Positions 22,109-32,877 of a stretch of 35,196 nucleotides of DNA are shown piece by piece. Each line of letters begins with the position of its first letter. Position 1 is the stretch's first letter. The position numbers and the translations under genes were made by a program. Origin of the DNA: Acidobacteriota bacterium. GTDB lineage: Bacteria > Acidobacteriota > Terriglobia > Terriglobales > Acidobacteriaceae. Location: the NCBI GenBank assembly GCA_021779935.1, contig JAJXZT010000031.1, positions 1-35,196 on the forward strand. Direction: 5' to 3'. The notes below the pieces were generated by a model that searched no databases, was not told where the DNA came from, and saw only the letters and a list, made by a program, of their open reading frames with translations.

Positions 22109-22135
22109 AAGCGCTCCACTGCGGAGCGCTTTTCT
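22109..22135. terminator. Hairpin terminator between convergent engB and the BON gene
   Basis: AAGCGCTCC (22109-22117) pairs perfectly with GGAGCGCTT (22123-22131) over 5 nt, then TTCTCTG. The minus-strand side ends in TTGTTCTTT, so it may serve both convergent genes. Confidence 0.75.
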
Positions 22136-22167: not shown

Positions 22168-22920
22168 TCACTTTCCGGATGACACCGCGAGATTATTGGT
22201 CACCCTGTACACGCCCGGCACCTCCGATGCCGCCATGAACGCAACCTGTTTATCCACCTGGCTGTTCACCACGCCGTCCAACGCTACATTGCCGTTTGCC
22301 ACCACAATGCGAATTGGATCCTGCGGGTCGTTGGCATACATCGGAAGCCTTCCGTAAACCGCACGTGCAACGCGGAAACGGATGGCATCGTCAAACGGTG
22401 AGAGCGGCGCAACTTTCACCCTGTCAATGAGTTCCTTCACTCCCGGCGTCGTTTCCACCAGGTTGATTGCGGAATCCCTGCTCGCATAGGTCCGAGTGCT
22501 GCCGGAGAGCGTCACCACTCCGTTCCGCACGCCCAGGCTGAAACTGTTGAACACGGTTCCCGGGTACGTGTGGTCATAGCGCAACTTGTCCGCAAGCTTG
22601 TTCTGCAATTGCTCATCGGGAACAGTGCTCGCAACCGTAACATCGTCGCGCACTCCCGCGACATGGTCCTTGCGGCGAATCTTCTGCTCCGCGTTCGCCT
22701 TGTCGTAATACAGCCCTACCGAGCCGGTGAGAGTCACTACACCTTGTTCTACCCTGGCATGCACGTTCGAAAGACTCTTGTTACCCTGCAGGTAACTTTG
22801 TACCTCACTCAGAATCTGCGAGTCGTACTTGCCGCTCCCGGACACCTGCTGCGCGGCAATTGGCGCGCACAGCGCCGCCGAGAGGATCGTCACCAGCGTC
22901 AACTTAATTGCTTTCGTCAT
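22168..22920 (-). CDS. Exported protein with three BON domains
   Basis: This is a 250-residue periplasmic protein. A signal peptide (about 1-24, ending PIAAQ) is followed by three BON (OsmY/nodulation) units. Each has the helix-strand pattern ending in a G-V-V-T-L-x-G type motif: EQGVVTLTGSV (about 58-68), RNGVVTLSGST (about 132-142) and NGNVALDGVV (about 209-218). BON domains are thought to bind phospholipid or outer-membrane surfaces, as OsmY does under osmotic stress. The start ATG 22920 has AAGGAGAGG just upstream. A perfect palindrome lies 14-31 nt upstream of the start, so transcription is probably controlled. It is 74 nt from pcm and may form its own transcription unit. Confidence 0.85.
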   Translation of the reverse strand: MTKAIKLTLVTILSAALCAPIAAQQVSGSGKYDSQILSEVQSYLQGNKSLSNVHARVEQGVVTLTGSVGLYYDKANAEQKIRRKDHVAGVRDDVTVASTVPDEQLQNKLADKLRYDHTYPGTVFNSFSLGVRNGVVTLSGSTRTYASRDSAINLVETTPGVKELIDRVKVAPLSPFDDAIRFRVARAVYGRLPMYANDPQDPIRIVVANGNVALDGVVNSQVDKQVAFMAASEVPGVYRVTNNLAVSSGK

Positions 22921-22994: not shown

Positions 22995-23669
22995 TTATCG
23001 ATGCCAGGCAGGAAATCCGGCTTCGCCAATGAGCGGCACAAAACGACAGCCACCGAGAGTGGCGGTCTCAATACTTCCCTTGGACTTACGCGCCAGATGC
23101 AGCATCTGCAACTCGACAGAACCAACAGGCACAATCATGCTGCCGCCCTCTTGCAGTTGCCCGGCCAGTGCGGCCGGGATGGCCGGCGCCGCCGCCGCAA
23201 CGATGATGCGGTCAAACGGAGCGTGCGAAGGCAGACCTTCGCTTCCGTCTCCGTCAATTACCACTGTATTTGTAAACCCGGTTCGAGCAAGATTGATTCG
23301 CGCACGCGCGGCAAGTTCAGGGCGCACTTCCATGGTGAAGACTTCGGTGGCAAGCAGGGAGAGGACGGCTGCCTGGTATCCGGTACCGGTGCCAATTTCC
23401 AGCACCCGGTCTTGGGGATCGATGGCGAGCAGTTGCAACATGTACGCCACGATGAATGGCTGCGATACTGTCTGTCCGCCGCCAATCGGAACCGGCGAAT
23501 CGTCGTAGGCGAGGCGGGTCAACTCCGCGTTGACAAATTCGTGCCGGGGAACCCGCAGCATGGCGTCAAGCACGCGTTCGTCGCGGATTCCGCGCCGGCG
23601 AAGCTGCTCTTCCACCATGCGCGCGCGCGCCGCTTGAAAGCTCTCGGCGACAGATGTTTCTTCAGGCAC
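22995..23669 (-). CDS. pcm: Protein-L-isoaspartate O-methyltransferase
   Basis: This is a 224-residue SAM-dependent methyltransferase that starts repair of isoaspartyl residues in aged proteins. The N-terminal helix region (RARMVEEQLRRRGIRDERVL) and the PCMT substrate loop GGGQTVSQPFIVAYM are present. The SAM motif is VLEIGTGTGYQAAVL, and FDRIIVAAAAPAIP is the later conserved block. The start is GTG 23669, 6 nt after the tamB stop, so it is probably translated from the same mRNA. There is no signal peptide, so the enzyme acts in the cytoplasm. The length is typical. Confidence 0.95.
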   Translation of the reverse strand: MPEETSVAESFQAARARMVEEQLRRRGIRDERVLDAMLRVPRHEFVNAELTRLAYDDSPVPIGGGQTVSQPFIVAYMLQLLAIDPQDRVLEIGTGTGYQAAVLSLLATEVFTMEVRPELAARARINLARTGFTNTVVIDGDGSEGLPSHAPFDRIIVAAAAPAIPAALAGQLQEGGSMIVPVGSVELQMLHLARKSKGSIETATLGGCRFVPLIGEAGFPAWHR

Positions 23670-23675
23670 GGCGGA

Positions 23676-26600
23676 TCACCGTTTGCGCTTCCGGATGCGC
23701 ACATCGAATCCGACGACGCCGTTCTGGTCGCGCACTCCAATGATCGATATTTCTCGATTTATATTGTACTCAACCTGGATCACTTCCTGCGCCGATTGCG
23801 CAAGGTTCGTGATGTAGGTGAGTGTCACCTTGTTCGATACCTGTTGTTCGATCGTCATGCGGGCGTTGGCGGCGTTTTCCGGGCCGCCGACCGAGGGATC
23901 GATCTTGATGCGGCTCACGCCGAACAATTTCTGCACGCGGCTGCTCACCGTTGCGTTCAGTGCCTGCCCCAGCAGCGCACTCGACGCGCTCTCCGTCAGC
24001 GTCGGCTGCGATTGCGTATAGGCCACCGTCGCCTGGTTGATCGACTCCTCACGCGTTCGCCCCAGCGCCAGCAGTGCAATGATGTCACCCGTCGGCAGCG
24101 GCGGATCCGAGCGGTACGTCATGCTCAACCGGTCGAGCGAGCCGTGCAGCCCCAGCGTGATGTCGTAGTCCCTTACGTGCGCGGTTGCTTCCGTGTCGAG
24201 CACCGGCGTAATCGTAACCGGGTTGGAGAAAACGATGTCCCCGCGTTCGATGTGATATTTCGTCCCGGCAAAATTCACATCGCCTTCGAGTATGTCCACT
24301 CTTCCCAGCACCGCCGGGCGCGCCGCCGTGCCGCGAATGTGCAGATCGACATCTCCCGATATTCGCGCCAATGAAGTTTCCACTTGTAGCGCCGCCGTGG
24401 AAACGACATGCACGTCGAGATGCAGGTTGTTCGTTGGAGATCCCGGTCCTGGCCCGATTGCCGACTGCTTGCTGCGCGCCAGGTACATGGCAAAATCGAA
24501 CTGCGGGTTCAATGCAAATTTCGTCACCGTAACGTCGCCGGAGAGCATTGCATTCTTCATGCTGCCGGAAAGCGTCAGGTTCGCATCCGCAGTGGAACTC
24601 ACGCCTTCCGGATAGCGGATGCGGATGTCGCGGCCGTGTCCCGTCAGGTTAAAGGCGATTCCCCGTTCGTAGGTAATAAAACCACCAAGAGTCAGCAACC
24701 CTCCGCCTGACCGCGCCGAGAGGCTCTCTACCTGCAAACGATCCTGGTTAAAGATCATCGTGCCGTTCACGCCGCTCAGTCCGTTCGGCATGTCGATGTA
24801 AGAGACAGCGCCATTGGTAATCGTGACCCGCCCGTGAAAACGCGGTTGCGTGACCGTGCCGCCGATGGTGAGGCCGAACGCACTGACCCCACTCGACATC
24901 AGGTTTGCATCAATCGTCTGCAGTATCTTCAGATTGACGTCGCCGTCCGCACGCATTCGCAACCGGCGCTCGCCCGTAACTTCGGCCGTACCGCGCAACT
25001 CCAAAAAGTGTGTCTGTTCGCCGACCATGCGGAACTGCTCAATGCGGACGAGACCTCCCGCAATGTTCACGCGAAGCGGACCGTCATTCCGAACGGGAAC
25101 GCTCTCCAGATTGCTCGACAATCGTGCAATGTTGATGCCCAGGTTGAGCGCGCCCGGTGATTTCAGCGATCCGGAGACATCCGCCCGGCCATCCACTGCC
25201 GTTGGCCCGGTAAGTCTTACGGGAACGAATGCTTCGATCAGAGGATTCAAGTTGGTGCTGTCGAAAGTCAGTGCGCCGCTTCCCGCCATTTCGCCGCGCA
25301 TTTGAATCATGCCATCGAACGAAACATGTCCTTGCGGAAAATCGGAGCGGGCCGTCACACGCATTTCCGCGCCCTGCGTTACCGCAGTCGCCTTTAGATC
25401 GCCGACCCGTACCTTGTTTATAGCGAGGTCTCGCAACTGCAACGACGCGTTGATCGCCGGTTCATCCGGTGTTCCCTTGCCCGAGGCATCCAGCGAAAGC
25501 AGACCGGCGATATGCACCTTGGAATAGTTCGCCTGCGCTAGACGGTCAACGCGCAAATTTTCGCCGTGTGCATTGAATCGGAACGCCTTTGTACTCACGT
25601 TGTATGCAACACTTCCACTAGCCGTACCCACATCGCTTGCCAAGCGGACATTGCGCGCCTCGGCTTCGTTGTTGGCGAAGGCGACATCTGCGGCAAGCGA
25701 CTGCACGGCCTGTCCGTACACCACGGCTTTCGACAGTGTCACGTGACCCGCGACTTGTGGCGCGTTTCGCGTGCCCATGAATTGAAGGGCCGCATCCAGC
25801 GTGCCAGTCACAGGATAGGCATACCCAGCGATTGACTGTAGTTCCGCGACATCGCCGTGATGCAACGCAACGCTGGCCGTAAAAGGGGTATCCCTGGTGA
25901 ACTCTCCGTTTACCGGTGTCGCCGAACCTTCCGCATTGATCACGGTTGGCCCGTGACGCAACACTGCGTTGCTCACCCTGACGCGTTGCGGAGAATAAAG
26001 CACATCGGCCGATAACTCGTCCCAATGGATTGACTGTACACGGTGCTGTGCAGGACCTGTGCTTACTGTCTTTGTCGCACCCGGCTCTGGATTGGCGCCC
26101 TTCAGCGGCCATCGCGGAAGTTGCCAGTACGCCGGATTCTCGAGAATCGGTCCTGGAACTGCTGTGCTCGGTTTTACCTGCGCTGCCACAACTGGCTTAG
26201 AAGCCTGCGGTTGCGGAACCTCGCTACCAACCATTGTTGTAAAGTCTCGTGCGTCCACGTGACCCGTGATCGTGGGCACTTTCAGAGTTCCAGTCGCGCT
26301 GCCGGAGAAAGATGCCACGCCCGAAAGATGCACCGGCAGCATCGTTGGACCGCCGAGTGCTTCGACCATTGGCCCGAACTCCGCAAGGTTCGAGGTCGCG
26401 AGATTGAATTGCAGGCTATTGCGCGGACTGAGCGCTCCTGACGCAGTGAGATGAGTCGCACGCGTCGAGAGTGTAAGGACGTCAAAGTTAAGTACTCCTG
26501 ACGGCTCGCGATACGACGCCTTCACCTGTCCGAAAACCGGCAACTCATCCGAAGGTACTGCCGCCGGTGCGCTGACATTGAGCGATACATCCGTGCGCAG

Positions 26601-27914
26601 ATCCTGTCCCGTCCCCTTCCAGTCTGCTCGCACGGTTCCCGACGCAGTTCCCAAGGTCTTCAACTTGTCGAGCGGCAATCGCTGCGTGGAGACAGCGGAC
26701 AAAATTTGCGGAATCGAGACTCCATGCACGGAAAGCTCAATCGATCCATTCGGACGGCCGAGACTTAGTAACTCGGCGCCACGACTCTTGTTCGAACGGA
26801 AAACCGCTGTACCAGGCTCAATAGAGCTTCGCACGCTGGCTTTCCCCGTCAGGGTTCCGCCGAGCGCGTGAATAAAAATGTGCGGTGCCGCGATACCCTG
26901 ATTTTCCAGCGTGAAGTCAGCTCCTCCGGAAACATCCGCCACATGAAGCGATGGGTCGGACCATGCGAAATCGCTGATTGCAACTTTGCCGATCGATGCA
27001 ACTCCCTGTTGCGACCAGGTGGCGCGTCCTCCGAGGTTGAACGTCCCGTCTCGCACTTCGCTCACTCTTGCAATTCCGGCCAACTCGCGCAGATCCCCGC
27101 TGACCTTGTATGTCGCATCCACTTGCGGCTGCCGGAAGTTATCCACGCTACCGCTCGCCTCCAACCGAAGTCCGCTGGTCGCCACAGTCAGGGATTTCAC
27201 CGAGATTCGCGTCGGGAGAATACTGAACTCTGCGTCCCCCTGGATTGAAACCGGCCTGTAGTCCTTAAGCTTCATGTCGATCTTGCCGGCTCGGATCGTT
27301 CCGTCAAACCGCGTCTCCTGCGTGGAATACGTCATCTTCGCCGTTACATCGTTCGCATTGATGTCTAAAGGAATTCGCTGCTCATTCAGCAGCAGCACTC
27401 CGTCAGTTAGTTCCAACCGCTCGATGCCAAGATTAAACAGCTCTTCCGGTGTACGACTCGCTGTGCTTTTTACTTTAGGCGTGGGCTGGTTCGTGGTTCC
27501 GTCGGGATAGACAATGAGGTGTACTTCCGGCCGCTCAATTGAAAGCTGCCTGAATCCAATTTTTCCACGCAACATCGAAACGATTTTCAGCCGCGCATAA
27601 AGGCGCCCCACATGAACATAAGGAAGTTCTCCGGGGCCTTCTTTGCCGTGGACCGTCAGGCCGTCAGCTTCGAATTCAAGTTTAAGCAGGCTCCACTTTA
27701 GATCGCGAAGTTCCACGTGTCCGCCGGTCGTCCTTTCCATCTCGCTGATGATGGCATGGCGAACTTGCTCTCGAAAATTACCACTGGAGAGATACCATCC
27801 GGCTGCAATGAACAACACCAGCAGGACAAAACTCACGGCAAGGGGCCACCACCGCATCACCTTCTGTGGCGGCGACTTTTCTTCCGCGGGTTGCTGATGG
27901 AGGCTATCGGTCAT
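23676..27914 (-). CDS. tamB: TamB-like translocation and assembly protein (DUF490)
   Basis: This is a 1,412-residue inner-membrane-anchored protein that spans the periplasm. One N-terminal membrane segment (about 21-42, WWPLAVSFVLLVLFIAAGWY) is followed by a very long beta-rich AsmA/TamB-like body. The C-terminal ~300 residues hold the DUF490 core, with GDVNFAGTKYHIERGDIVF, DYDITLGLHGSLDRLSMTYR and PLPTGDIIALLALGR. TamB-like proteins are linked to outer-membrane protein assembly and lipid transport between membranes. The start ATG 27914 is 6 nt past the SurA-like stop, and pcm begins 6 nt after its own stop. A proline-rich linker lies near residue 600 (VPQPQASKPVVAAQVKPS). Confidence 0.92.
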   Translation of the reverse strand: MTDSLHQQPAEEKSPPQKVMRWWPLAVSFVLLVLFIAAGWYLSSGNFREQVRHAIISEMERTTGGHVELRDLKWSLLKLEFEADGLTVHGKEGPGELPYVHVGRLYARLKIVSMLRGKIGFRQLSIERPEVHLIVYPDGTTNQPTPKVKSTASRTPEELFNLGIERLELTDGVLLLNEQRIPLDINANDVTAKMTYSTQETRFDGTIRAGKIDMKLKDYRPVSIQGDAEFSILPTRISVKSLTVATSGLRLEASGSVDNFRQPQVDATYKVSGDLRELAGIARVSEVRDGTFNLGGRATWSQQGVASIGKVAISDFAWSDPSLHVADVSGGADFTLENQGIAAPHIFIHALGGTLTGKASVRSSIEPGTAVFRSNKSRGAELLSLGRPNGSIELSVHGVSIPQILSAVSTQRLPLDKLKTLGTASGTVRADWKGTGQDLRTDVSLNVSAPAAVPSDELPVFGQVKASYREPSGVLNFDVLTLSTRATHLTASGALSPRNSLQFNLATSNLAEFGPMVEALGGPTMLPVHLSGVASFSGSATGTLKVPTITGHVDARDFTTMVGSEVPQPQASKPVVAAQVKPSTAVPGPILENPAYWQLPRWPLKGANPEPGATKTVSTGPAQHRVQSIHWDELSADVLYSPQRVRVSNAVLRHGPTVINAEGSATPVNGEFTRDTPFTASVALHHGDVAELQSIAGYAYPVTGTLDAALQFMGTRNAPQVAGHVTLSKAVVYGQAVQSLAADVAFANNEAEARNVRLASDVGTASGSVAYNVSTKAFRFNAHGENLRVDRLAQANYSKVHIAGLLSLDASGKGTPDEPAINASLQLRDLAINKVRVGDLKATAVTQGAEMRVTARSDFPQGHVSFDGMIQMRGEMAGSGALTFDSTNLNPLIEAFVPVRLTGPTAVDGRADVSGSLKSPGALNLGINIARLSSNLESVPVRNDGPLRVNIAGGLVRIEQFRMVGEQTHFLELRGTAEVTGERRLRMRADGDVNLKILQTIDANLMSSGVSAFGLTIGGTVTQPRFHGRVTITNGAVSYIDMPNGLSGVNGTMIFNQDRLQVESLSARSGGGLLTLGGFITYERGIAFNLTGHGRDIRIRYPEGVSSTADANLTLSGSMKNAMLSGDVTVTKFALNPQFDFAMYLARSKQSAIGPGPGSPTNNLHLDVHVVSTAALQVETSLARISGDVDLHIRGTAARPAVLGRVDILEGDVNFAGTKYHIERGDIVFSNPVTITPVLDTEATAHVRDYDITLGLHGSLDRLSMTYRSDPPLPTGDIIALLALGRTREESINQATVAYTQSQPTLTESASSALLGQALNATVSSRVQKLFGVSRIKIDPSVGGPENAANARMTIEQQVSNKVTLTYITNLAQSAQEVIQVEYNINREISIIGVRDQNGVVGFDVRIRKRKR

Positions 27915-27920
27915 GAAATG

Positions 27921-28640
27921 TCAATGGCTGGGCGCCTCATTGCCTCCCGCTCCGAATGGAGCCTCTGTGTCCTTGGCCGCACCCTTCAACTCCGGATCCA
28001 TGATGTGTATCTCGCTCTGGCTGCGCAGGTTCTGCATCCATGTGGAGAACATCTTGTCGATCTTCTGCTGCGTAAGCAACTCTTCGATCTTGTCCGCCAC
28101 CGCCGAAAGCGGATCGGGTTCCGCGCCCATGCGCTTCACCTGTGGAACGAGTTTGTCATTGTAGTAGGCGACAATCTCCGATCTCTGCACCCGCACCGTG
28201 GGACGCAAACGCATTTCCACGAAGCGCAGCGTCTGCAACTGCGAAGAGATCAGGTCGTCCAGCTCCTTTTGCGTGAAGCCGTAGGAAGCCAGCACGCTCT
28301 TCCACGCCGCATTGGATTTCGCGCTGGCGTAGAGCACTCGGATGTCTTCCTCGCGATGCGCAATCTCCGCCGCGGTTGGCATGTACAGGTCCTGCATCTG
28401 CTGGAGCAGAAGCTGCCGCTCAATCAGCCGCTGGAATGCCGCATTGCGTTCTGCTGCCGTCACGGCAGTCAAAGGCCGCGCTTCCTGCAGCGCTTCAAAA
28501 CGAATTTCATCTTCCAGTTCGCTCTGCAACACAGGCTTTCCGTTCACCGTCGCGATGATGCGATCCACCACCTGGCTGGCAAATCCACAGCCGGTGGCAA
28601 GCAGCAACACGATCGCGATCTGTGCGAACTTGAGTCTCAT
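27921..28640 (-). CDS. SurA N-terminal-domain chaperone lacking a PPIase domain
   Basis: This is a 239-residue exported protein. The signal peptide (LKFAQIAIVLLLATGCGFASQ) could be cut by either signal peptidase, because ATGC is a weak lipobox. VVDRIIATVNGKPVLQSELEDE (about 24-45) is the usual start of a SurA_N/parvulin-type chaperone fold. The following helices (AFQRLIERQLLLQQMQ, FTQKELDDLISSQLQ, LRFVEMRLRPTVRV) complete the core. No rotamase domain follows, whereas E. coli SurA has two, so the protein would hold outer-membrane clients rather than isomerise prolines. The ATG overlaps the bamA stop as TAATG, and tamB begins 6 nt after it. The tail (APFGAGGNEAPSH) is probably disordered. Confidence 0.83.
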   Translation of the reverse strand: MRLKFAQIAIVLLLATGCGFASQVVDRIIATVNGKPVLQSELEDEIRFEALQEARPLTAVTAAERNAAFQRLIERQLLLQQMQDLYMPTAAEIAHREEDIRVLYASAKSNAAWKSVLASYGFTQKELDDLISSQLQTLRFVEMRLRPTVRVQRSEIVAYYNDKLVPQVKRMGAEPDPLSAVADKIEELLTQQKIDKMFSTWMQNLRSQSEIHIMDPELKGAAKDTEAPFGAGGNEAPSH

Positions 28641-31639
28641 TAGAAAGTCTGCCCGATACTAAAGAAGAAATTGAACCGCTTCAGCCGCTCGTAATGAGGA
28701 GTCACGCCGGTGGAAGCTTGCTTGATTGGAAAGAGCGGCGCGTTCAGGTTGTATCCCAGGTCGACGCGCACCGGGCCAATCGGCGTCTTGTAGCGAATGC
28801 CGCCGCCAACCGCTTGCGACATGTAATTGAAGTCGCATTTCGAATTGGCGGAAAGGTCCTTGCATGTGTCCGGATGGCGCTGGCTGAATCGCCAGAGATT
28901 GTGCCACATCTCGTTGGATGTCGAGAAGACATTGCCCATGTCGTGAAAAAGTACGAAGCTGACGTTATTTCCAACGAATGGCAACGGCGTTGGCGGCAAT
29001 CGTAATTCGAGATTATTGATGATCATCGCGTTTCCGCCCAGCGGAGATCCAGTCGCGGGATCGCGTGGCCCTGCCTGGTTGATGGCGAAACCACGAAGCG
29101 AATTGCTGCCACCGGCGAAGAACCGCTCCGGCAACGGGATAATGTTGGAGCTGCCATAAGGCATCTCCACGCCAATGCGCAGCGAACGTGCAAACACGTA
29201 TCCCTTGCCGAACCGGTGGTATGTCGAATTCTGCGCGAGAATCCTCCCGAAGTCCGCTTCCGAACCGAAGTATCCAGAAGCCACTCCGATGTCGAGCGTG
29301 TTGTAAACGCCCTTCGTCGAATTGACGGGATCGTCGCGCCGGTCCTGAATATAAGTAAGACTTGGCATGCCGACGCGCACCGGACGTGAATAGATCGGGA
29401 TGAGGTCGGGACTGAAACCGACGGGAAAACTCGACGGATCCACTTTCACGCGTCGATAGCTAAAGCGATACAACAGTTGGGAAGCTTTACTCAGCACCTC
29501 GGTGAGCTGCGCGGAACCTTCCAGTCGTTCCGATGCGAAGGTGTTTACGTCGCGCGAATTGTCATAAAAAGTGGTGAATGTCAGCCGCCAGTTTGGAAGA
29601 TCAAGCCAACGCGGCGAATCAAAACTGAGCAGCGCACGCCGCTCAAGTTGGCCGAGGCGCGACTTGAAAATGATCGACTGGTCGCGTCCCCGGAAATTAA
29701 TCCTCGTAACGTCGAAAGAAACACGCGGACTGATTCCCGTCTTGCCCTGTGGAGACGTACCCTGTGCCTGGTTCGTACCCGTGCCGAATTCAAATCCAAA
29801 TCCATAGTTGAAGGTGTACCGTTTCGCCTCTTTGATGTTGTACAGAAGCGTCTTGTACGTCGCTGCGCCATCAGGGTTCTGTATTGCCATATCAACGACG
29901 TTGAATATCCCGAGATCGTAGAGGCGGCGTTGAGAATTCAGCATCGCCTCCTGGCTTAGCGGTTGCCCAGGTTTGATTTCAATCTCGCGATCGACAATGT
30001 ATGGCCGGGTAAATTCAAGTCCGGAAACCAGCACCCTGCTGATGAATACGCGCGAACCTTCGTTGATGCTGTATGTGACATCGACTTTCGTCGGATCGCC
30101 ATTGTGCGGCTTCACTTCGCTCTGGAACTGAACATTCGGGAAACCGTTGTTGAAGTAAAAATTAAGAAGCGTCTCACGATCCGTCGCCGCAATAGCCGGT
30201 GAAAACGGCTGGCCCTCGCCAGTATCAATCTTCGAGAGCAATTCTTCGTCGCTGAATGATTTGTTGCCCTTAATGGTGAGGGAATGCACACGGGTCTGCG
30301 GGCCTTCAGCAATCGTGATGGTCACTCCCATCCGGCCCTTCTTCTGATCGTGCATCACCTCGCCTGACACCTTTACACTTTCGAAACCGTTCGACTGGTA
30401 CAAGTCCGTGATGGACTGCACATCCCTGGCGAGTGCGCTCTGGCTGAAGCGTCCGTGCGATAGCACCATGCTTGCCGGCTGAACGATCATGCGTTCGCGG
30501 ATGGTATCGCGGTCGAAATACCTATTTCCTTTAATCACTACCCTGGTGAGTTTCTGACGCTCGCCCTTGTCCACGGCGTAGACGATGTGAACTTGACTGG
30601 AGTTTGCCGGACGATTCTCCTTCACTTCGATCTTTGCGTCGAAGTAACCCCGGCTTTGCATGTAATCGCGAATATTTCTCCGTCCTTCATTCAGGAGATC
30701 GGTATCAACGGCGTTTTCCTCGAACACCGGAACATACTTCCTCAGTTGGCCGCTGCTGAGGTTCGCACCCTCGACATCCACCTCAACGGTCGGTCCGCGA
30801 TCAACCTCAAATGAGTAATCAACCGTATTATTCGCGGGATTGTACTTCTTGTCCGTCAGCGCAATTTGCGCCTCGAGCCGGTCCTGCTTCTGATACTTCT
30901 TGCGCAGCCGCTGCAGTGCGCGCGAAACCGTATCGAACCTCACCCAGTCATGAGGATGGATCTTTCCGATATCTTCGACTTGTCCCACTGAAAAACCGGA
31001 ATTGCCGGTGATTGCCACCGTTCCCACCCGTGCTCTTGCACCGGGCGCCACATGGAATGCAACATCCATCTGCTGGGTCTCGGGATGAGCGACTTCCTGG
31101 TGCGTGATGGTTGCGTGGTAATAGCCGTAATCCTGGAGCAGTTGCAGCATCAACTGTACGGCTTGATCGACTTTTTCCTTGGAATACGTATAGCCAAGCT
31201 GAAGCTTGCTGGCGTTCACCATCTGGCTCTCGTTCGGGCCAGACTTCGGAAAACCATCCACTGACACAACCCCAGCGAAGTAACTTTGCTTGAAAATAAA
31301 TGTCAGCTTGATTTCATCCGGCCCGGCGGGATCTGCCACGGCCTCTATATCCGTAAATCGGCCTGTTGCGTAAAGCGCCTTGATGCTGTCGCGGATCTTG
31401 ATGCGATCAAGTGGTGTGCCCACTTCCTGCTGCACCAGACTACGCAGATGCGCTTGCGGAATTGTCGCGACAAGCCCCTGAAAATCAATTTGTGCGACCT
31501 TCATTCCCTGCAGCGAAGTACGCGCTGGAAGCTGCGTCGCCTTGGCGGAAGTGGCCGGCTGCTGCGCAGAAACAAGCATGGGCAGCGCACACATCAACGC
31601 CAGCAGACTACGCCGAACTAGCCTTGCGGATGTGAGCAA
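28640..31639 (-). CDS. bamA: Outer-membrane protein assembly factor BamA, seven POTRA domains
   Basis: This is a ~999-residue Omp85 protein that inserts beta-barrels into the outer membrane. The signal peptide is ARLVRRSLLALMCALPMLVSAQ. The start is unsure: consecutive TTG codons at 31645, 31642 and 31639 follow GGGGG, and 31639 gives the best spacing; the open frame reaches 31702. I count seven POTRA units, beginning near MKVAQIDFQGL, YFAGVVSVDGF, RARVGTVAITGN, PTVEVDVEGAN, RQKLTRVVIKGN, RVHSLTIKGNK and FISRVLVSGLEF. The 16-strand barrel follows, with FFAGGSNSLRGF at the loop-6 VRGF position and a final aromatic strand ending in Phe (FFFSIGQTF). E. coli BamA has five POTRA. It is first in the operon with the SurA-like gene, tamB and pcm. 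Confidence 0.92.
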   Translation of the reverse strand: MLTSARLVRRSLLALMCALPMLVSAQQPATSAKATQLPARTSLQGMKVAQIDFQGLVATIPQAHLRSLVQQEVGTPLDRIKIRDSIKALYATGRFTDIEAVADPAGPDEIKLTFIFKQSYFAGVVSVDGFPKSGPNESQMVNASKLQLGYTYSKEKVDQAVQLMLQLLQDYGYYHATITHQEVAHPETQQMDVAFHVAPGARARVGTVAITGNSGFSVGQVEDIGKIHPHDWVRFDTVSRALQRLRKKYQKQDRLEAQIALTDKKYNPANNTVDYSFEVDRGPTVEVDVEGANLSSGQLRKYVPVFEENAVDTDLLNEGRRNIRDYMQSRGYFDAKIEVKENRPANSSQVHIVYAVDKGERQKLTRVVIKGNRYFDRDTIRERMIVQPASMVLSHGRFSQSALARDVQSITDLYQSNGFESVKVSGEVMHDQKKGRMGVTITIAEGPQTRVHSLTIKGNKSFSDEELLSKIDTGEGQPFSPAIAATDRETLLNFYFNNGFPNVQFQSEVKPHNGDPTKVDVTYSINEGSRVFISRVLVSGLEFTRPYIVDREIEIKPGQPLSQEAMLNSQRRLYDLGIFNVVDMAIQNPDGAATYKTLLYNIKEAKRYTFNYGFGFEFGTGTNQAQGTSPQGKTGISPRVSFDVTRINFRGRDQSIIFKSRLGQLERRALLSFDSPRWLDLPNWRLTFTTFYDNSRDVNTFASERLEGSAQLTEVLSKASQLLYRFSYRRVKVDPSSFPVGFSPDLIPIYSRPVRVGMPSLTYIQDRRDDPVNSTKGVYNTLDIGVASGYFGSEADFGRILAQNSTYHRFGKGYVFARSLRIGVEMPYGSSNIIPLPERFFAGGSNSLRGFAINQAGPRDPATGSPLGGNAMIINNLELRLPPTPLPFVGNNVSFVLFHDMGNVFSTSNEMWHNLWRFSQRHPDTCKDLSANSKCDFNYMSQAVGGGIRYKTPIGPVRVDLGYNLNAPLFPIKQASTGVTPHYERLKRFNFFFSIGQTF

Positions 31640-31822
31640 CAACAATCCCCCATTTTTCCCTGTTCGTTCGTACCGGTAACCCGGCAAGTGCACTCCACCC
31701 ACTTATTCTGATGAGCCTCGGCCAACAGCATGTTGCACGGAGCACCGGGCATACGCATATGGTCCGGTACGGTTTTACACGGCCGTGCGAGGGCCTGCCG
31801 CACACGCATAAACTCAGGCCCT

Positions 31823-31828
31823 TATAAT
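31823..31828 (+). promoter_or_regulatory. Perfect -10 box upstream of the ThiF-like gene
   Basis: TATAAT lies 20 nt before the ATG at 31849. No convincing -35 hexamer is found 16-18 nt upstream and there is no TGn extension, so promoter status rests on the -10 alone. Confidence 0.3.
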
Positions 31829-31848
31829 ACCTGTTTGGACTGGAATTA

Positions 31849-32877
31849 ATGGACTCGAAGACGAAATTCGAAGAGCGGTATTCAAGACAGATACTCTTTC
31901 GCGGAATTGGCGAAGAAGGACAGCGGCGGCTGGCCGAATCGCGCATCGCCATCGTTGGCTGTGGGGCAACGGGTTCGGTGCTCAGTTCGCTGCTGGCGCG
32001 CGCGGGCGTGGGATGGATTCGCATCATCGACCGCGACTACATAGAACCGAGCAATCTGCAGCGGCAGGTGTTGTTCGACGAGCAGGACGCGGCGGAATCG
32101 CTGCCGAAGGCAATTGCCGCACAGCGAAAATTGCAGTCGTACAACTCGGAGATCACCATCGACGCGCAGGTGGAGGACGTAATTCCGGGCAACATCGGGG
32201 ACTTGCTGGAAGGCGCGCAACTGGTGATGGACGGCACGGATAATTTCGAGACGCGCTACCTCATCAACGACTACGCGGTGAAGAATAATGTCGCGTGGAT
32301 TTATACCGCGGCGGTGGGCAGTTATGGCGTGACGATGAACGTGCTGCCGCACGAGACGGCGTGTCTGGCCTGCGTATTTCCTGACTCTCCGCGAGGTGTG
32401 GTGGAGACGTGCGACACGTCGGGAATTTTAAATTCGGCGGTGAATGCCGTGGCGTCGATTGCGGTGACGGAAGCGCTGAAGTTTCTTGTGGGTGCAAAAG
32501 ACAAGATGCGGCGCACCTTGTATTCACTGGACGTTTGGCACAACGATCACGCGGAGATTACGGTGGACCATCCGCGCGCGGGATGCCGCGCATGCGACGA
32601 AGAAGACTTCATTCATCTCGCTGGAGAGGCGCGTCCACACATCACGATGTGCGGCAGAAACTCAGTGCAGATACATGAGCGTAATCGGGCAGTGGATTTT
32701 TTGGAGATGAAAAAAAGATTGGAACCGCATGGGATTGTGCGGTGTAACGAGTTCGTGTTGAAGTTCTGGCGGGAGCCGTACGAGATGACGCTGTTTCCGG
32801 ACGGGCGGGCGATCATCAAAGGCACGACTGACGCGGGTTTGGCGCGTAGCCTGTACGCGCGGTTCGTCGGCTCGTAG
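31849..32877 (+). CDS. ThiF/MoeB/HesA-family E1-like adenylyltransferase
   Basis: This is a 342-residue enzyme that would adenylate the C-terminal glycine of a ubiquitin-like sulfur carrier (ThiS or MoaD type). The N-terminus RYSRQILFRGIGEEGQ is typical. The nucleotide loop is GCGATG (37-42), followed by DRDYIEPSNLQRQVLF. Zinc ligands are C172/C175 (CLAC) and C246/C249 (CRAC). C188 in VVETCDTSGIL sits at the conserved cysteine of MoeB/ThiF. After the zinc site comes an extra ~80-residue domain (ITMCGRNSVQIHERNRAVDF onward) containing another Cys (IVRCNEF). No rhodanese motif is seen in it. No carrier-protein gene lies nearby. Which cofactor pathway it serves cannot be read from the window. 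Confidence 0.88.
   Translation: MDSKTKFEERYSRQILFRGIGEEGQRRLAESRIAIVGCGATGSVLSSLLARAGVGWIRIIDRDYIEPSNLQRQVLFDEQDAAESLPKAIAAQRKLQSYNSEITIDAQVEDVIPGNIGDLLEGAQLVMDGTDNFETRYLINDYAVKNNVAWIYTAAVGSYGVTMNVLPHETACLACVFPDSPRGVVETCDTSGILNSAVNAVASIAVTEALKFLVGAKDKMRRTLYSLDVWHNDHAEITVDHPRAGCRACDEEDFIHLAGEARPHITMCGRNSVQIHERNRAVDFLEMKKRLEPHGIVRCNEFVLKFWREPYEMTLFPDGRAIIKGTTDAGLARSLYARFVGS

Follow-up and report, generated by a model that had tools for sequence, protein, structure and literature searches.

A TamB-linked second Omp85 with a probable isomerase-free SurA core in an acidobacterial gene cluster, and fused TamB-Omp85 reading frames in related genomes

In Escherichia coli, the translocation and assembly module (TAM) is formed by the Omp85 protein TamA and by TamB, and the accessible text of a cryo-EM study reports that the last strand of TamB pairs with strand 1 of TamA, with the C-terminal strands of TamB lying in the barrel lumen (PMC12800296). 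The available parts of two reports support both the insertion of clients and the passage of lipids as TAM functions (PMC12800296, PMC11341756). For Acidobacteria and Aquificae, the accessible text of Heinz et al. (2015) reports that they encode a second BamA which groups with TamA, that some duplicated copies carry seven POTRAs and that the acidobacterial gene order is BamA-TamB (PMC4494059). A one-chain bridge between inner and outer membrane is known, from the portion of the paper available, in the long MlaD of Veillonella parvula (PMC10665443). Here we analyzed a 35,196-nt contig of an Acidobacteriota bacterium (JAJXZT010000031.1, assembly GCA_021779935.1; hereafter the window), whose host genome comprises 4.49 Mb and is 99% complete, and which carries a cluster encoding an Omp85, a SurA-like protein, TamB and the protein-L-isoaspartate O-methyltransferase Pcm. 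The reading we prefer, with a probability of about 0.78, is that this cluster encodes an acidobacterial TAM with a dedicated second Omp85, a SurA core that would feed clients to it, and Pcm as a passenger. Since Heinz et al. already report the TamB-linked second BamA of acidobacteria, the heart of this finding is in print; what goes beyond it, as far as our searches reach, is the isomerase-free SurA core, the placement of pcm after tamB in the family of the window, and reading frames in which TamB and Omp85 are fused.

A Pfam scan together with the list of open reading frames gave the order Omp85, SurA-like gene, tamB and pcm on the minus strand. The Omp85 gene (28640..31702, with a GTG start at 31702, unless it begins later, near 31639) meets the SurA-like gene (27921..28640) in the motif TAATG, a 1-nt overlap at 28640, and gaps of 6 nt follow on either side of tamB (23676..27914), at 27915..27920 before it and at 23670..23675 between it and pcm (22995..23669), all read from the sequence. 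The four adjoining genes with overlapping or 6-nt junctions described in the initial annotation were thereby confirmed, and they may be co-transcribed. The Omp85 protein consists of POTRA repeats followed by a barrel that runs to the C-terminus (28643..29698; PF01103 at residues 669-1020 of 1020, E 2.9e-48 to 7.9e-48), and the POTRA array (29828..31501) comprises seven PF07244 matches over the cut-off, seven also being found with a profile built by ourselves.

Two Omp85s were detected in the host genome with PF01103, namely the window gene and a gene on another contig (G000:C55) whose barrel is truncated by the contig end. The PF07244 count over the whole genome was seven POTRAs for the window gene, five for the C55 copy and two for a barrel-less protein on contig C49, and no three-POTRA Omp85 was found with PF01103 or PF07244. 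The C55 gene lies downstream of rpsI-rpsB-tsf-pyrH-frr (flanking genes named from their translations), a setting in which bamA is also found in E. coli. In a 98-row Omp85 tree, E. coli BamA formed one clade with the canonical BamAs of 18 acidobacterial loci (99), and 73 TamB-linked Omp85s, the window protein among them, formed a separate one (99 in the Shimodaira-Hasegawa-like approximate likelihood ratio test, SH-aLRT); a 64-row tree agreed, with the window protein outside the BamA clade (SH-aLRT 100). Seven POTRAs were counted in the unfused Omp85s of all 18 loci of the window's family and in 32 of 39 others, and five in 16 of 18 canonical BamAs (these counts, like those of SurA cores below, come from profiles built on these same loci, which distant members may escape). 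The window protein therefore departs from a canonical BamA, with seven POTRAs in place of five and a tree position apart from BamA, and from a proteobacterial TamA, with seven POTRAs in place of three, while sharing with the latter the clustering with tamB, one small gene lying between. The name bamA given to it initially does not suit it: judged from domains, neighbourhood and trees, the gene is a TamB-linked second Omp85 that would stand in the place of TamA, with the main BamA elsewhere. A second Omp85, for which the initial annotation had suggested a genome search, does exist, with the roles exchanged, the C55 copy being BamA and the window protein occupying the TamA place.

E. coli TamA, on an end branch of 2.86 in the 98-row tree, was grouped (96) on the BamA side with four acidobacterial Omp85s (L069, L079, L097 and L124). 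These four are TamB-proximal and possibly true TamA types. Four unfused Omp85s from other families than that of the window, possibly these same proteins, gave just three POTRA matches.

The small gene following the Omp85 gene (239 codons) matches SurA_N_3 (E 9.3e-9) and begins with a signal peptide as judged by eye; no rotamase (parvulin peptidyl-prolyl isomerase, PPIase) domain was matched at E <= 0.1. A profile made from 27 proteins of this kind, here called SurA cores, recovered the N-domain of E. coli SurA (E 2.4e-18) and skipped both parvulin domains, and its score against the last helix of SurA (418-448) was 6.5 bits, which is not significant alone. An AlphaFold model of the window protein (predicted local distance difference test, pLDDT, 77.9) aligned over residues 25-214 with residues 25-426 of SurA (8pzv_F), with 167 residues matched, the C-terminal helix included and a Z-score of 13.4, a value of which the comparison tool warns that helical bundles may reach about 13 through their common arrangement. 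The top three Foldseek matches to the model were SurA chains of BAM-SurA complexes (BAM, β-barrel assembly machinery). The remaining four SurA_N proteins found in the host genome all possess a PPIase domain. Given that the N-domain profile, the fold and Foldseek agree while the PPIase domain is missing, the middle gene most likely encodes a SurA core without an isomerase domain.

The association of the three genes recurs. At all 41 loci having a SurA core, it lies downstream of the Omp85 gene on the same strand, within 200 nt in 39, with larger distances at L111 (473 nt) and L125 (788 nt). At 17 of 81 loci, the window counted, the genes run Omp85, SurA core, TamB, and at 24 more TamB, Omp85, SurA core; because both orders recur over the 81 loci, the linkage of the three is beyond chance. 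In the window's family the Omp85 gene comes first at 18 of 18 loci, and a SurA core followed by tamB was also seen on eight further contigs labelled Bryobacterales or Terriglobia. A compact gene set for envelope assembly, which the initial annotation had proposed, is thus borne out by Pfam and by the recurring order, with TamB paired with an Omp85 and a SurA-type chaperone. In some Omp85-TamB pairs (L055, L059, L163, L164 and L167) no SurA core was detected in between, and two of these, L055 and L059, occur as an additional pair in genomes of the window's family that also hold the three-gene set.

TamB of the window (PF04357, E 1.1e-48) has its C-terminal domain (DUF490; best stretch at residues 1064-1405 of 1412) as the only PF04357 match in the host genome, and a hydrophobic stretch near residues 22-45, a possible N-terminal membrane anchor, was seen by eye. 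In the phylum sample, 18 of 149 genomes gave no TamB match among the matches listed, six of them in genus g65, and 17 of these 18 had an Omp85 match. Pcm matches the PCMT domain (PF01135, E 3.1e-61) over residues 21-216 of 224. No signal peptide was seen by eye at its N-terminus, so the enzyme is presumably cytosolic and without direct action on periplasmic clients. Across the phylum sample just 2 of 81 loci, both from the window's family, have pcm close to tamB, and from this initial count pcm had been taken for a random neighbour. That view was withdrawn because of a family survey: Pcm was found at E <= 1e-25 in 18 of 40 family genomes, the window counted, and in 16 of these 18 the two genes share a strand with pcm after tamB, the exceptions being G184 and G161 (positions compared by eye). 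By its gene position, pcm is a family-level partner of tamB. In one family genome TamB is matched solely by a fragment containing an in-frame TGA (G171:C3:25232-25549), which lies beside an intact-looking pcm. A loose parallel exists in E. coli MG1655 (L152), in which tamAB adjoins the divergent msrA, also a gene for a protein-repair enzyme.

Beyond the window, TamB and Omp85 are encoded in a single reading frame in at least 35 of 149 sampled phylum genomes and at least 22 of 61 families, with lengths of 2,019-2,779 codons that run from stop to stop, some frames ending at contig or stretch borders. Of 80 fetched loci, 21 held one frame matching both proteins, and 14 further genomes were fetched and confirmed. 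The fused frame is the only PF04357 match in 18 of those at least 35 genomes, among the matches listed, and the Pfam order of TamB, POTRAs and barrel was verified in 4 of 4 fusions tested. One such frame, found in a genome scan with a four-row query alignment, stands without an internal stop on the 5.99 Mb contig of Acidobacteria bacterium Mor1 (L153; CP011806.1) and another in Candidatus Polarisedimenticola svalbardensis (L154). The fused protein of the phylum genome G053 shares 100% identity with that of Mor1 over 1,100 residues. Two second fusions in genomes already counted (L185, and L187, which ends at a contig border) bring the set examined for sequence features to 37 frames; outside the count of 35 are also the split case L186 and L188, which is not judgeable. 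L178 (1,835 codons) proved unfused.

The fused chains retain the C-terminal domain of TamB, which is followed by a hydrophilic linker of 11-55 residues to the first POTRA (37 frames), then by the POTRAs and the barrel. No signal-peptide-like stretch was present at the junction in any of the 37 frames (highest 15-residue hydropathy 1.59). In a control test, a segment of at least 1.8 before POTRA 1 was found in 0 of 21 fusions, compared with 46 of 57 unfused Omp85s and 14 of 18 BamAs. An N-terminal hydrophobic segment of at least 1.9 within the first 150 codons was present in 32 of 37 (not in L122, L129, L171, L176 and L187). An AlphaFold model of the C-terminal 1,100 residues of the Mor1 protein (pLDDT 72.2; predicted template modelling score 0.42) gives the domains and not their mutual placement; it shows helices and six strands at the TamB end, a linker of low confidence at 349-373, then five units resembling POTRAs and a barrel region of many strands, and the 50 PDB matches listed for the model are BAM/BamA chains. 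These frames look like single-chain bridges from the inner to the outer membrane, provided that their products stay in one piece. Nine of the ten genes flanking five of the fusions belong to families unrelated to envelope assembly, and one had no match. In Chlamydiota, the only other phylum surveyed, TamB was found in 19 of 50 genomes, with no TamB frame above 1,298 aa among the 19 and no fusion. The frames L185:4204-9768 (G020) and L187:3-3158 (G005) have one detectable POTRA each, and a five-POTRA fusion is present in the same genome in both cases. At L186 (G148:C747), the C-terminal part of TamB and the Omp85 share a 1,400-codon frame and the N-terminal part of TamB lies in an overlapping second frame; this is either a split gene or a frame error.

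Five POTRAs occur in 17 of 21 fusions. Fusions were gathered in one group for 19 of 21 in the 98-row tree (85) and 20 of 23 in the 64-row tree (90). In both trees the seven-POTRA fusions L090 and L174 sit beside the unfused seven-POTRA L108, and the four-POTRA fusion L074 is nested among unfused Omp85s. A single clade of fusions was rejected by the approximately unbiased (AU) test (p 4.1e-5), the constraint on 23 fusions costing 224 log units in a set of 23 of the 37 fused frames, 30 of 57 unfused Omp85s and 11 BamAs. Repeated fusion would be the simpler reading of these trees; one gain with later splits, or repeated splitting, is possible. The order tamB-omp85 is frequent in the phylum sample, by which read-through fusion would be possible, and the window's family has the opposite order with Omp85 first. 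We consider it fairly probable that Acidobacteriota have one-piece TAMs, likely of more than one origin, in which a chain of more than 2,000 residues carries an inner-membrane anchor, TamB and a five- or seven-POTRA barrel, the unfused form often being accompanied by an isomerase-free SurA.

For the window we propose the following model. TamB would be anchored in the inner membrane and span the periplasm, and its C-terminal domain would dock onto the seven-POTRA Omp85, an outer-membrane protein distinct from BamA, at the lateral gate and the POTRA array. The SurA core, lacking isomerase domains, would most likely bring unfolded outer-membrane clients to this second Omp85 or hold them there, the hydrophobic groove of TamB would be offered to phospholipids, and Pcm would be a cytosolic passenger co-expressed in the window's family. 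Since both partners are encoded as one polypeptide in other acidobacteria, their partnership would be covalently fixed there, and the window proteins may be a two-piece version of the same bridge. The fused frames in relatives support a physical Omp85-TamB complex, which the window species may also form, and the short linker between TamB and the POTRAs would agree with a periplasmic position of the TamB C-terminus.

Several alternatives were weighed against this model. That one Omp85 serves as the cell's BamA and also in the TamA role, as the initial annotation had raised, would agree with the nearby TamB and the missing three-POTRA Omp85, and it resembles Borrelia burgdorferi, in which BamA binds TamB without a TamA according to the accessible text of the report (PMC13382580). 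We rejected it because C55 carries a distinct five-POTRA BamA beside rpsB-tsf-pyrH-frr; with the canonical BamAs and E. coli BamA in a clade of their own, such a dual role is very improbable. Greater weight must be given to the view that the module is chiefly a phospholipid bridge, the TamB groove carrying lipids, the Omp85 being a mere outer-membrane foot and protein assembly secondary. The available parts of two papers (PMC12800296, PMC10665443) link proteins of the TamB type to the anterograde transport of phospholipids, a covalent link between TamB and barrel suits a permanent conduit, and none of the surveyed fusion loci has a SurA core; the two roles may also coexist. However, a SurA-type core accompanies 41 of 54 unfused Omp85s, hinting at protein clients, and we regard a mainly lipid-carrying module as a real possibility with the odds leaning against it. 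The present data fit either role, the chaperone core tilting them toward protein clients.

The long frames might instead yield two chains, through internal starts, proteolysis or assembly errors, and the spread of TamB over two overlapping frames at L186 speaks for such a view. This is unlikely in view of open frames without internal stops in so many genomes and families, one of them on a 5.99 Mb contig, and of the junctions, since an internally started Omp85 would have no export signal where a signal-peptide-like stretch is missing; later proteolysis would still be compatible with them. Pcm, for its part, could be a functional member whose isoaspartate repair aids envelope assembly under stress, as might be suggested by its place next to tamB in 16 of the 18 pcm-bearing genomes of the family. 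Against this stand the missing signal peptide, the 22 of 40 family genomes without Pcm at E <= 1e-25 and the rarity of the pairing across the phylum, and we find such a role quite unlikely. Turning back to the TAM with a second Omp85 and a SurA core, four points weigh against it. Pcm has no evident mechanistic link to the module. The SurA assignment is mainly sequence-based, the Z-score being near the value for unrelated helical bundles. The survey detected no SurA core next to 13 of the 54 unfused Omp85s or at the 21 fusion loci covered, although a more distant one would escape in short fetched stretches (e.g. L072, L089 and L111), and the core is therefore non-essential to the module. Finally, E. 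coli TamA does not fall with the window clade in the 98-row tree, unlike in Heinz et al. (2015), so shared descent with TamA is unsupported here.

The borders of the cluster were also inspected. An exported protein with three BON stretches (PF04972) is encoded at 22168..22920 on the minus strand, 74 nt beyond pcm, and a homologue directly follows tamB (or pcm, as in the window) at 11 of 18 same-family loci. The BON protein DolP of E. coli is linked to BAM. The BON gene may be a further and candidate last member of the transcription unit, so the cluster described initially as ending in a repair enzyme keeps its repair enzyme, supported by the PCMT match, and may extend past it. A terminator-like hairpin 3' of the BON gene (22109..22131, minus strand) is a weak one, 19 such sites being found against 14.3 expected in shuffles. 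Upstream, the intergenic region 31703..31848, the presumed promoter region, reaches to a divergent ThiF-family gene (31849..32877, plus strand; Pfam); it has no sigma-70-like site, in a promoter scan that was uninformative (2 sites against 5.7 expected). The barrel-less POTRA protein of contig C49 (L020:7384-8631, plus strand; G000:C49:19383-20630) has 415 residues and a signal-peptide-like start. It has matches over most of its length in 4 other genomes of 60 from the phylum (G009, G024, G013 and G022; frames of 437-480 aa), and it is possibly a soluble POTRA scaffold.

The fusions bear on two questions, the manner in which TamB contacts its partner in the outer membrane and the nature of TAM cargo, be it protein, lipid or both. 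A natural covalent chain would fix the identity of the partner, a 1:1 stoichiometry and the topology, with the TamB C-terminus periplasmic about 11-55 residues before the first POTRA. If true, fusion would hold the TamB strand fixed beside its own lateral gate and provide a natural test of the hybrid-barrel model, and structural studies could work from a single gene. The presence of a SurA-core gene alongside the module hints at a client route dedicated to it, by which a protein-assembly role could be tested apart from a lipid role. Neither a TamB-Omp85 fusion nor a TAM operon with a SurA core was described among the papers listed by a literature search that left out most subscription journals and bioRxiv, nor were they found by term searches of the accessible text of PMC4494059, PMC11014939, PMC13382580 and PMC12800296.

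Compared with known systems, the cluster is closest to the acidobacterial BamA-TamB operon of Heinz et al. (2015), with which it shares a second Omp85 near TamB, the seven POTRAs of some copies and a canonical BamA elsewhere; the terms 'surA', 'isoaspart', 'fusion' and 'fused' were not found by term search in the main text of that paper as available (PMC4494059). It resembles E. coli TamA-TamB in having Omp85 and TamB in neighbouring genes and differs in its seven POTRAs, against three in TamA (two detected by our own profile), and in the extra SurA-core gene between Omp85 and tamB. Like the Borrelia hybrid, as far as the accessible text describes it (PMC13382580), it combines TamB with a BamA-like Omp85 and no separate three-POTRA TamA was found, but Borrelia employs its own BamA, which in the window genome is a separate gene. 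The SurA core shares with the chaperone SurA the N-domain, by profile and fold, and a signal peptide judged by eye, and differs in lacking the parvulin PPIase domain and in being encoded beside an Omp85. The fused chains, finally, recall the long MlaD of V. parvula, in which a single chain carries both an inner-membrane anchor and a C-terminal barrel; in the available part of that report MlaD belongs to the MCE family and ends in a ten-strand barrel (PMC10665443), whereas the acidobacterial frames join TamB to an Omp85.

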